Shown one piece after another: positions 15,260-18,324 of a stretch of DNA of 64,000 nucleotides (position 1 is the first letter of the stretch; each line of letters opens with the position of its first letter). The notes beneath the pieces are model-generated. The model had not been told where the DNA came from, searched no databases, and saw only the letters and a program-made list of their open reading frames with translations. Source of the DNA: Candidatus Sulfurimonas baltica (GTDB lineage Bacteria; Campylobacterota; Campylobacteria; Campylobacterales; Sulfurimonadaceae); NCBI RefSeq assembly GCF_015265455.1, contig NZ_CP054492.1:558001-622000 (forward strand), in the 5' to 3' direction. Both the position numbers and the translations under genes were made by a program.

Positions 15260-15874
15260 ATGCAAAATACAAAAGCCAGAACAAATATTTACGCATTGCT
15301 TTCTCGTGTACTGCTTCAAGAACTAGATACTGAAATGCTTAAAACAATTAAAAATGACGAAAATATTTTAGATTTTTTCCCAACATTAAAAGAGTGGAAG
15401 CCATTTCAAGAGATACAAGCAAGTAAACTTTTAGAAGAGTATTTAAACCCTGACTTTGTTAATCTCTCTGTTTTACATCTTATTCCTTATGAAACTTTTT
15501 ACACTAGAGAAGACCAAAAGATTGAAACAGGCGGAGCCAACCCGGTTACAGATATTTACAGCGCTTATGATTTTATGGTTGATTACGAAGTCTCTCGCAC
15601 TATTTCGGCAGATCATATTGGTGTTGAATTGGAGTTTATGCATCATTTGGTTGAAGCTGAGTTAAAAGCTTTGGAAGAAAATGATAGTGTTGCTGTTCTT
15701 GAACTCAAAGAGGTTCAGAGAGAATTTTTAAACAAACACCTTCTTCAGTGGGCACCTTTGTACCTGATAAATATGAAGTTTGAAGCACGAACACCTCTTT
15801 ATTATGATGCTGCTGAGATGGCTTTAGAATTTTTACTAAGTGATAATGAATATTTATCAAAAGAGTTAAGTTAG
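15260..15874 (+). CDS. TorD/DmsD-type molybdoenzyme maturation chaperone
   Basis: This 204-residue all-helical protein looks like the TorD family of chaperones that bind twin-arginine leaders and aid molybdenum-cofactor loading of enzymes such as formate dehydrogenase or nitrate reductase. The supporting features are an N-terminal RTNIYALLSRVLL helix, LEEYLNPDF, the HLIPYETFYTRED segment at the position of the family Y-x-x-x-F motif, and a C-terminal half with EFMHHLVEAE. It begins a tight four-gene run with a ferredoxin, an AroE-like protein and an unknown protein. No molybdoenzyme is in the window, so its client is unknown; formate dehydrogenase is a common partner of such pairs in this phylum. 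Confidence 0.75.
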   Translation: MQNTKARTNIYALLSRVLLQELDTEMLKTIKNDENILDFFPTLKEWKPFQEIQASKLLEEYLNPDFVNLSVLHLIPYETFYTREDQKIETGGANPVTDIYSAYDFMVDYEVSRTISADHIGVELEFMHHLVEAELKALEENDSVAVLELKEVQREFLNKHLLQWAPLYLINMKFEARTPLYYDAAEMALEFLLSDNEYLSKELS

Positions 15875-15877
15875 AAG

Positions 15878-16984
15878 ATGATACAACTAAGTGCAGGTCT
15901 TTGTGTTCGCTCATTATCAAAAGATAGTGAGTGTAATAGATGTGAAACAATATGCCCAACAGGAGCAATAGTTGTAGCTGATAATCCACTGCCAAGTATC
16001 AATTTTTCTGCTTGTGTTGCATGTGGCGCATGTGACGCGGTTTGCCCAAATGAAGCACTCTCTTTAGATAATTTTAGTGCAACAGATTTTTTCTTTAAAT
16101 TTATTGAAGATGATGACAATTTAATATCTTGCAAAAAGAATGTTCCATGTATAGCAGCTCTAAATATTGAAAATATTATCTCAATGGCGGTACTTAAAAA
16201 AGAGATAGTTTTTGACATGGGTCACTGCGATGGTTGTGAGATAGCTCATAAATGCAAACCTCAAATAGAAAAAAACCATGAAGAGGCATCTTATATCTTA
16301 GAAGCTATGGAGAATCCGGCGTTTATTAGAGTTGAAGATGTTAAGTATGAAAAAGCTGATTCCAAGCAAGGTGAAACAAGCGACAGAAGAGATTTCTTAA
16401 AAAATATAAATTTAAAAGCTGTGGCAAAAACAAAACATGCATTTGAAAAAGAGATAAAAAAAGCAACAGATGAATTGGTTGAACATACTCTGCAAAAGAG
16501 TGATATAGCCCTTTTAAAACAAAAACGAATACCAGACAGAAGAAAACTGTTTTTTACAGCTATAAAAAGAGTAGAAAAGCCATCCCAGTTTCATATAATT
16601 GAAACAGATGAGATTACATTCACATCAATGAAACTGCTTGATAGTGAAAAATGTACTGCATGTCAAATGTGCTACAGAGTCTGTCCAACCGGTGCTTTAA
16701 CATCTGATGTTAAAAATTCTAAAATAGATTTTGATCCATTTCTTTGTATTAAATGCCATATCTGTCATGATGTATGTGAGCCGGATGCTATAACCCTTTC
16801 ACCCTCATATAATGTAAAAGAGTTTTTTGAACCTGCTGTGCAAAACCTCATTAAGTTTAATGTAAGAAGATGTAATGAGTGTAATGTTATATTTAGTACA
16901 AACACGGCAGATAAGTTATGCTACAGATGTAAAGCGGAAGATGAAGAGGCTCGCGAACTTTGGGGTATAACCGATGATATGTAA
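15878..16984 (+). CDS. Multi-cluster 4Fe-4S ferredoxin-type protein
   Basis: This 368-residue cytoplasmic protein has two pairs of cysteine clusters. The N-terminal pair is CNRCETICP and CVACGACDAVCP (about residues 20-56). A CDGCEIAHKCKP motif lies at about 118-129. The C-terminal pair is CTACQMCYRVCP and CIKCHICHDVC (about 258-300), followed by a CNEC...CYRC ribbon near the end that may bind zinc. It probably moves electrons for, or helps assemble, a redox enzyme. It starts 3 bp after the TorD-like gene and is followed by the AroE-like gene 15 bp on. Whether it is a stable subunit or a maturation factor is unknown. Confidence 0.85.
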   Translation: MIQLSAGLCVRSLSKDSECNRCETICPTGAIVVADNPLPSINFSACVACGACDAVCPNEALSLDNFSATDFFFKFIEDDDNLISCKKNVPCIAALNIENIISMAVLKKEIVFDMGHCDGCEIAHKCKPQIEKNHEEASYILEAMENPAFIRVEDVKYEKADSKQGETSDRRDFLKNINLKAVAKTKHAFEKEIKKATDELVEHTLQKSDIALLKQKRIPDRRKLFFTAIKRVEKPSQFHIIETDEITFTSMKLLDSEKCTACQMCYRVCPTGALTSDVKNSKIDFDPFLCIKCHICHDVCEPDAITLSPSYNVKEFFEPAVQNLIKFNVRRCNECNVIFSTNTADKLCYRCKAEDEEARELWGITDDM

Positions 16985-16999
16985 TATAGGATATTTAAA

Positions 17000-17797
17000 A
17001 TGATGAACGATGGTAATGAGATTTCTCATCATACAAAGCTTTACGGTTTTATAGGAGAGTTTGCAGGGCAGAGCAGTGTGTCCGCAAAACTAAACAAAAT
17101 ATTTAAAGCCAAGAGTAAAGATGCGATGATGATTCCTATGAACATCAGAGAAGATGATTTTTATTTTACAGTTTCTAATATGAAAAAGTCACATGTAAAT
17201 GGTGCTTTTATTTCAACTGAGTATGTCACTAATGTAGTCGAACTTTTGGATGAAAGCTCAGAGATAGTAAAGCACTCCGGCATGTGTGATATATTAATCC
17301 GTGATGGTGAAAAACTCATTGGAGATATTTTAAGTATAGAAGCCTTAAGAGAGTTTTTAAAAAAAAGAGGTGCTGAAAAAGTTGCGCTTATTGGAATAAA
17401 TCACTATGCAAAAGCTTTTGCTTTTAATGCACAAGAGTTTGAAGTTAGTTATTTTAACGATGATTTAGAGTCCTTGATGAGTTTTACAACCGATATGAAA
17501 GTGGTTGATGCTGATATCAACCGGATAGCTGATAGGATGGATGTGGACTTTTCAAGTTATGATGCAGTTATTGACTTTTCAGATATCCAAAGTTTTAACA
17601 TGGTTAATAATCTAAGTGCAACAAATATTGATTTGAAACTAAAAAAGCAGTTTTCAGCCCTTAAAACAAGAGCCCATGAACTAGAAGCTAGCTATATTGG
17701 TTTTGATGAGTTGTGTGATGAATTTAGTGAGGCTGTTTTTGAATATTTTAAAGAAAAAAAACATCTTGATTATGATAAATCAGACATGAGATTTTAA
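17000..17797 (+). CDS. Shikimate-dehydrogenase-like (AroE fold) protein lacking the catalytic residues
   Basis: This 265-residue protein follows AroE throughout its length. The N-terminal domain has KLYGFIGEFAGQSSVSAKLN, like the AroE start that carries the shikimate-binding serines, then GAFISTEYVTNVVELLD at the position of the GxNVTxPxK block. LIGDILSIEALREFL matches the GDNTDG block, and VALIGINHYAKAFAF matches the NADP-binding loop. The catalytic lysine and the NTD asparagine/aspartate are absent, and the nucleotide loop lacks its glycines. It is therefore unlikely to reduce dehydroshikimate. It lies inside the TorD/ferredoxin cluster, so a structural or maturation role is more likely. 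The AroE relation is read by eye and needs a profile search. Confidence 0.6.
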   Translation: MMNDGNEISHHTKLYGFIGEFAGQSSVSAKLNKIFKAKSKDAMMIPMNIREDDFYFTVSNMKKSHVNGAFISTEYVTNVVELLDESSEIVKHSGMCDILIRDGEKLIGDILSIEALREFLKKRGAEKVALIGINHYAKAFAFNAQEFEVSYFNDDLESLMSFTTDMKVVDADINRIADRMDVDFSSYDAVIDFSDIQSFNMVNNLSATNIDLKLKKQFSALKTRAHELEASYIGFDELCDEFSEAVFEYFKEKKHLDYDKSDMRF

Positions 17798-17814
17798 AAA
17801 AAAGGAAAATAATA

Positions 17815-18324
17815 ATGAATACAAATGATTTTAGTGATTTAAGAGCAGAGTTTGATAAGTTTGTAAAAGAGAGTTGTATAACAGACCCAGCAAAGGGTGG
17901 TGAGCCTGAGGACAGAGATTCTGGTGACAAAGTAGATGATGAACCAGTACCTCAGTTTGTTGATGCTCTAACATCTAAGCTTTTATCCCCTGCCGTTAGT
18001 GGAGTATATTTATCTAGGCTTGATATAAAAAGAGTTGCTGAGGCTATTGATGAGTCTATACCAATTAAAGAGCGTATTAAAATGGTTAGAGCTCTGTTTA
18101 GACACACGACAAAACAGCAGTATCTTAAAGATGCTTTTGCTGAAATTGATAAACATATTAATGGCCGTATTTTAATATATACTGAGCTGAGCGAGGCCTT
18201 TCCGGCGTCAAAATCTATATTTGACGAACACACAAATAAAGCTAAAAAAACTATGAGAATGTTCAACCAGATAATAGAAGACTTTGAGGAGATAGAAGCG
18301 ACGGACGACCCTATGTTTGTTTAA
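17815..18324 (+). CDS. Hypothetical protein at the end of the TorD/ferredoxin cluster
   Basis: I do not recognise this 169-residue protein. It is soluble and acidic. An N-terminal disordered stretch (about 25-45, rich in Asp, Glu, Gly and Pro) is followed by a helical domain with VYLSRLDIKRVAEAIDESIP and KERIKMVRALFRH. The start has an AAAGGAAAA ribosome site eight bases before the ATG. It begins 17 bp after the AroE-like gene, so it probably shares the transcript. A helical adaptor or chaperone would fit the context, but nothing proves it. Confidence 0.7.
   Translation: MNTNDFSDLRAEFDKFVKESCITDPAKGGEPEDRDSGDKVDDEPVPQFVDALTSKLLSPAVSGVYLSRLDIKRVAEAIDESIPIKERIKMVRALFRHTTKQQYLKDAFAEIDKHINGRILIYTELSEAFPASKSIFDEHTNKAKKTMRMFNQIIEDFEEIEATDDPMFV

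Follow-up and report, generated by a model that had tools for sequence, protein, structure and literature searches.

The four-gene block described here very probably matures a Psr-like molybdoenzyme, the enzyme built around the subunit MoA, and one of its products is a pseudoenzyme derived from shikimate dehydrogenase (AroE). The block lies in the window, i.e., the whole stretch of 64,000 nucleotides that was analysed (bases 558001-622000 of its only contig, 2.74 Mb long), from a genome whose closest relatives are named Sulfurimonas. Its genes would form the accessory half of a seven-gene system, in which MoB, MoC and MoA are the structural half.

All four open reading frames placed within 15260-18324 by the first-pass annotation were found there, on the + strand, as are all the features of the block given below. 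They encode a TorD/NarJ-family chaperone of 204 aa (TorD, 15260..15874; PF02613, E 3.1e-17, 63.3 bits, which passes the cut-off of 22.2), a polyferredoxin of 368 aa (Fer, 15878..16984; Fer4 families, E 9e-18), the AroE-fold pseudoenzyme of 265 aa (pAroE, 17000..17797), recognized by profile, fold and alignment, and a helical protein of 169 aa (Hel, 17815..18324), for which profile and structure searches returned no known family. Since the genes are co-directional and separated by gaps of only 3, 15 and 17 bases, they probably constitute a single operon. A search of one public collection with pAroE as query gave 62 loci in other genomes; Fer adjoins pAroE in 61 of these, Hel in 58 and TorD in 55, and the loci where a partner is missing are mostly contig ends. 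The gene is thus not common without its TorD and ferredoxin partners, pAroE without Fer being seen only at a contig end, and the presence of the partner genes in nearly all of the 62 loci indicates an association far beyond chance. One metagenome bin (JAMORO, isolate 4561-380 bin 045) holds two copies of the block (L058 and L061), with pAroE about 55-57% identical to that of the window across the matched part.

The AroE likeness of the protein at 17000-17797, previously proposed from the sequence, was returned by both profile and fold searches. pAroE matched TIGR00507 with an E value of 3.9e-9, but its 36 bits are below the 200-bit cut-off, and its profile matched AroE 2hk9 (E 1.2e-7). The AF2 model (pLDDT 92) has AroE structures as top PDB matches (Foldseek E 1e-15), and its comparison with 1p77 using VIA gave a Z score of 22.7 over 238 residues, with an rmsd of 3.2 and 16% identity, so that the two-domain fold of AroE is kept over the full length. 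Profile, fold and structure comparisons agree that pAroE descends from AroE and is not itself an AroE. The true AroE is separately encoded in the genome (G000:C1:831112-831888, 215 bits), and alignment with it confirmed, for the window copy, the losses that the first-pass annotation had listed and added that of the VNT motif: VPHK is replaced by TEYV, VNT by CDI, YNTD by GDIL, whereby the NTD motif and its aspartate are gone, and the glycine loop GAGGTA by GINHYA. No active-site lysine was recovered by this alignment; the column holds a valine in the window copy and is variable in other members.

Conservation in pAroE has instead shifted to new positions. The most conserved stretch is the motif DAMMIPMNIREDD (aa 41-53, 17120..17158), near-invariant in 28 sequences, with a core NI-x-x-[DE]-[DH] pattern that persists in distant members. 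Invariant in the same 28 sequences are Glu74 (17219..17221), at the position of the AroE proline that precedes the catalytic lysine, and Cys96-Asp97 (17285..17290), which replaces the VN of VNT. These new invariant residues stand in for residues of the AroE pocket, and the domain that carries them is the part of the protein retained in every lineage; both observations would fit a pAroE whose remodelled pocket (Glu74, Cys96, Asp97) still accommodates a small ligand, the protein acting not as a simple adaptor but as a maturation or quality-control sensor or as a ligand carrier. However, Cys96-Asp97 is not invariant in the most distant members, and the pair is lost in some that still have the block (L089, L105). 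We consider this reading unlikely.

The two halves of pAroE have had different fates. The N-terminal domain, formerly the shikimate-binding domain (17000..17329), is present in every family member, while the degenerate Rossmann domain with the C-terminal helix (17330..17797) is absent in many relatives; among 18 full-length members, mean pairwise identity is 60% for the former and 42% for the latter. pAroE is reduced to the N-domain (about 125-170 aa) in vent Sulfurimonas (L040-L064) and families f4, f8 and f13, and it is also short in genus g5 of family f1 (L100, L127), whose closest relatives have the full-length form. When mapped on a tree of 41 MoA sequences, short and full-length forms interleave, with at least four changes between them, counts that do not separate gain from loss, and a single clade of full-length pAroE was rejected (p 1.4e-6). 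Because pAroE descends from a two-domain AroE, the natural reading is that repeated deletions removed the Rossmann domain, and the conserved substrate-binding domain is what is left. It is very improbable that pAroE is still an oxidoreductase, with altered substrate and cofactor: the nucleotide domain was lost repeatedly, the lysine and the aspartate are gone, and the loop is missing from the window copy. What speaks for such an activity is the glycine-rich loop of some relatives (GAGATARA in L087, GAGKMAKA in L101, GAGSLAKS in L035) together with weak Shikimate_DH matches for L087 and L101; given that loop, NAD(P) binding may persist in some full-length relatives. The pAroE genes at L087:9596-10438 and L101:3413-4246 may represent intermediate stages on the way from AroE to the pseudoenzyme. 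Taking a role in MoA maturation as given, the likely reading is that pAroE acts as a non-catalytic adaptor, and not as a ligand sensor or an enzyme.

The client of the block is indicated by gene order in other genomes. At many pAroE loci a MoA of about 1090-1140 aa is encoded upstream of the block, and ahead of MoA are genes for an NrfD protein and an Fe-S subunit. The block lies directly 3' of MoB-MoC-MoA in L034, L035, L036-L064 and further Campylobacterota families, and the two halves are contiguous in most relatives outside the genus of the window. In this operon (MoBCA), MoB is an Fe-S subunit, MoC an NrfD protein and MoA a subunit with a Tat signal and Fe4S4 and Mo-bisPGD domains; the domains found were Molybdopterin, Fe4S4, Molydop_binding, Fer4_11 and NrfD (PF00384, PF04879, PF01568, PF13247, PF03916). 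MoBCA thus has the plan of the Psr-type molybdoenzymes (PsrABC), with A, B and C subunits comprising a Mo-bisPGD subunit, an Fe-S subunit and an NrfD anchor, but MoA is a remote relative of the characterized PsrA/PhsA, the match being confined to about 250 N-terminal residues. The PsrA-type enzymes of Sulfurimonas have been reviewed as polysulfide reductases (PMC4584964), their correspondence to MoA being putative, and psrA1B1CDE has been named in a Sulfurimonas isolate (PMC10045233); in the open-access literature searched on psrA1B1CDE and on Sulfurimonas TorD we found no description of the module. It is correct, as first noted, that no molybdoenzyme adjoins the block in the window; the partner is nevertheless encoded in trans in the same genome, where MoBCA was found at about 2.079-2.084 Mb, 1.5 Mb from the block, with a MoA of about 1138 aa (62% identity). 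The same genome encodes two similar 659-aa molybdoenzymes that have no Tat signal (L074:5847-7826, L075:5272-7251).

The distribution of the genes shows the same pairing. Among 298 Campylobacterota genomes, in which matches to pAroE and to canonical AroE were told apart by judgement, on the basis of the matched columns and the length of the frame, MoA is present in 52 and pAroE in 48: 47 have both, five MoA only, one pAroE only and 245 neither (Fisher p 7.5e-48, for genomes that share ancestry and counts that are not independent). Hel is found in 50 of the 52 MoA genomes. The single genome with pAroE only (G199) has the gene at a contig edge. As for those with MoA only, the locus stops at a contig edge in G047, and G279 does have a diverged short copy of pAroE (L095); the remaining three (G139, G250, G251) are one genus, in which MoA and Hel are kept, pAroE is undetectable and no gene lies between Fer and Hel at the two loci examined (L093, L094). 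This genus indicates that pAroE is not strictly essential. The link to molybdoenzyme maturation suggested by the first-pass annotation is thus supported by the TorD/Fer context, the synteny with MoBCA and the co-occurrence with MoA, whereas the partners it had named fail: the pattern for formate dehydrogenase (FDH) is the opposite of co-occurrence, and NapA, present in 250 of the 298 genomes, shows no link. That the block matures FDH or the periplasmic nitrate reductase is hardly credible, even though both enzymes are encoded in the genome of the window and the fdh operons of other bacteria come with TorD and fer4 genes (PMC4464133), since FDH occurs in 4 of 48 genomes with pAroE versus 195 of 298, NapA is widespread, and the FDH of this genome has a TorD and a 567-aa polyferredoxin of its own, without pAroE or Hel. 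The alpha subunit of this FDH (L072:4952-7783, - strand, genome about 1.639-1.642 Mb) appears as two ORFs split by an in-frame TGA, which probably encodes selenocysteine.

Returning to MoBCA as the client, the surroundings of the block suggest how the two halves came to be apart. In L035 and L088, which belong to different groups, a MoA-TorD-Fer-pAroE-Hel array adjoins pgpA and sat, the genes that also flank the window block downstream; the L035 contig ends at sat, and in L088 two more genes follow, resembling by their first residues the response regulator and ispDF of the window. With the whole system beside pgpA and sat in these genomes, the window block probably still occupies the original site, and it is the structural genes that were relocated. 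Other loci are split differently: in G037 only TorD and Hel adjoin MoBCA, and Fer-pAroE lies elsewhere, at the site of the window block, and L018 and L030 have Fer-pAroE without TorD or Hel. These loci indicate that Fer and pAroE are one unit, while TorD and Hel go with MoA.

A comparable set of genes is known from proteobacterial formate dehydrogenase operons, which carry TorD, fer4, DUF3305 and DUF3306 accessory genes (PMC4464133). We compared the block with two such loci (L112, L113). In both systems a TorD, a multi-cluster Fe-S protein and two small proteins are encoded beside a Tat-exported molybdoenzyme, and TorD and Fer are homologous to the alphaproteobacterial fdh-operon TorD and to fer4 (hhalign probabilities 92% and 99%); they differ in that the small proteins are pAroE and Hel, and the client is Psr-like and not FDH. 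No Pfam match to DUF3305 or DUF3306 was obtained in 28 and 33 members, and equating pAroE with DUF3305 or Hel with DUF3306 is unsupported (hhalign probability <1%, from two-sequence profiles that leave remote homology possible). By analogy, the block probably works like the fdh accessory set, with two components swapped and a different client. A catalytically dead AroE in molybdoenzyme maturation was not described in the open-access literature searched.

Fer was first described as a ferredoxin with four cysteine clusters. That part stands, sixteen cysteines accounting for four [4Fe-4S] sites; two further invariant quartets had been missed, and 24 cysteines in all are kept in 99-100% of the family. 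One quartet, C85/C91/C117/C120 (residues 85-120, 16130..16237), is 99-100% conserved and, judged from this conservation, is a possible fifth metal site. The other forms a CxxC-x12-CxxC knuckle, C332/C335/C348/C351 (residues 332-351, 16871..16930), is 100% conserved and is also predicted to bind metal.

For Hel, neither Pfam nor NCBIfam returned a family, and no PDB structure matched convincingly. Foldseek returned nothing under E 0.6 for its fold, and VIA-align found common helical arrangements only, with a best Z score of 8.6 over 60 residues. RhoGEF (best 1.2e-5) and other scattered Pfam families look like chance matches, and were dismissed as biologically senseless for a bacterial helical protein. 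A Hel paralogue of about 120 aa occurs in several genomes (L117:7069-7437, - strand; L115:6456-6812, + strand; L116, L118, L119, L120). Its gene is flanked on one side by that of an LRV/HEAT-repeat protein and on the other by that of an Mrp/ApbC Fe-S carrier NTPase, and these genes diverge from a rhodanese gene and an operon for type II DMSO-reductase alpha and beta subunits. The three proteins are possibly an undescribed accessory set, and this setting lends independent support to an assembly role for Hel.

Taking these observations together, the context speaks strongly for a role in maturation, and an adaptor role for pAroE is what we infer. MoBCA would be a Tat-exported, membrane-anchored Psr-like molybdoenzyme. 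As established TorD/NarJ biology suggests, TorD would hold apo-MoA and its Tat signal during insertion of Mo-bisPGD. In our own proposal, Fer would provide electrons or Fe-S clusters at the loading step. The N-domain of pAroE, with its NIREDD face and remodelled pocket, would work with Fer as a non-catalytic adaptor in the loading of MoA cofactors, and Hel would be an assembly factor specific to MoA. We regard this account of the block as the maturation half for MoBCA as likely overall, with the adaptor role of pAroE as its least certain step.

To our knowledge, the loading of Mo-bisPGD and Fe-S clusters past the TorD/NarJ step is poorly understood. pAroE and Hel are two candidate loading factors tied to one enzyme across several Campylobacterota families, MoA gives the module a defined client, and the losses of genes and domains and the splitting of operons seen in nature indicate which of the parts belong together. 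In pAroE, an enzyme of primary metabolism became a pseudoenzyme with a dispensable nucleotide-binding half. On balance, we lean slightly towards the broader view that the AroE substrate-binding domain was taken over as an assembly factor dedicated to a respiratory molybdoenzyme, that it acts as a pair with a polyferredoxin, the protein having been pared down to this domain several times independently, and that Hel is the first member of another, wider family of molybdoenzyme assembly factors.
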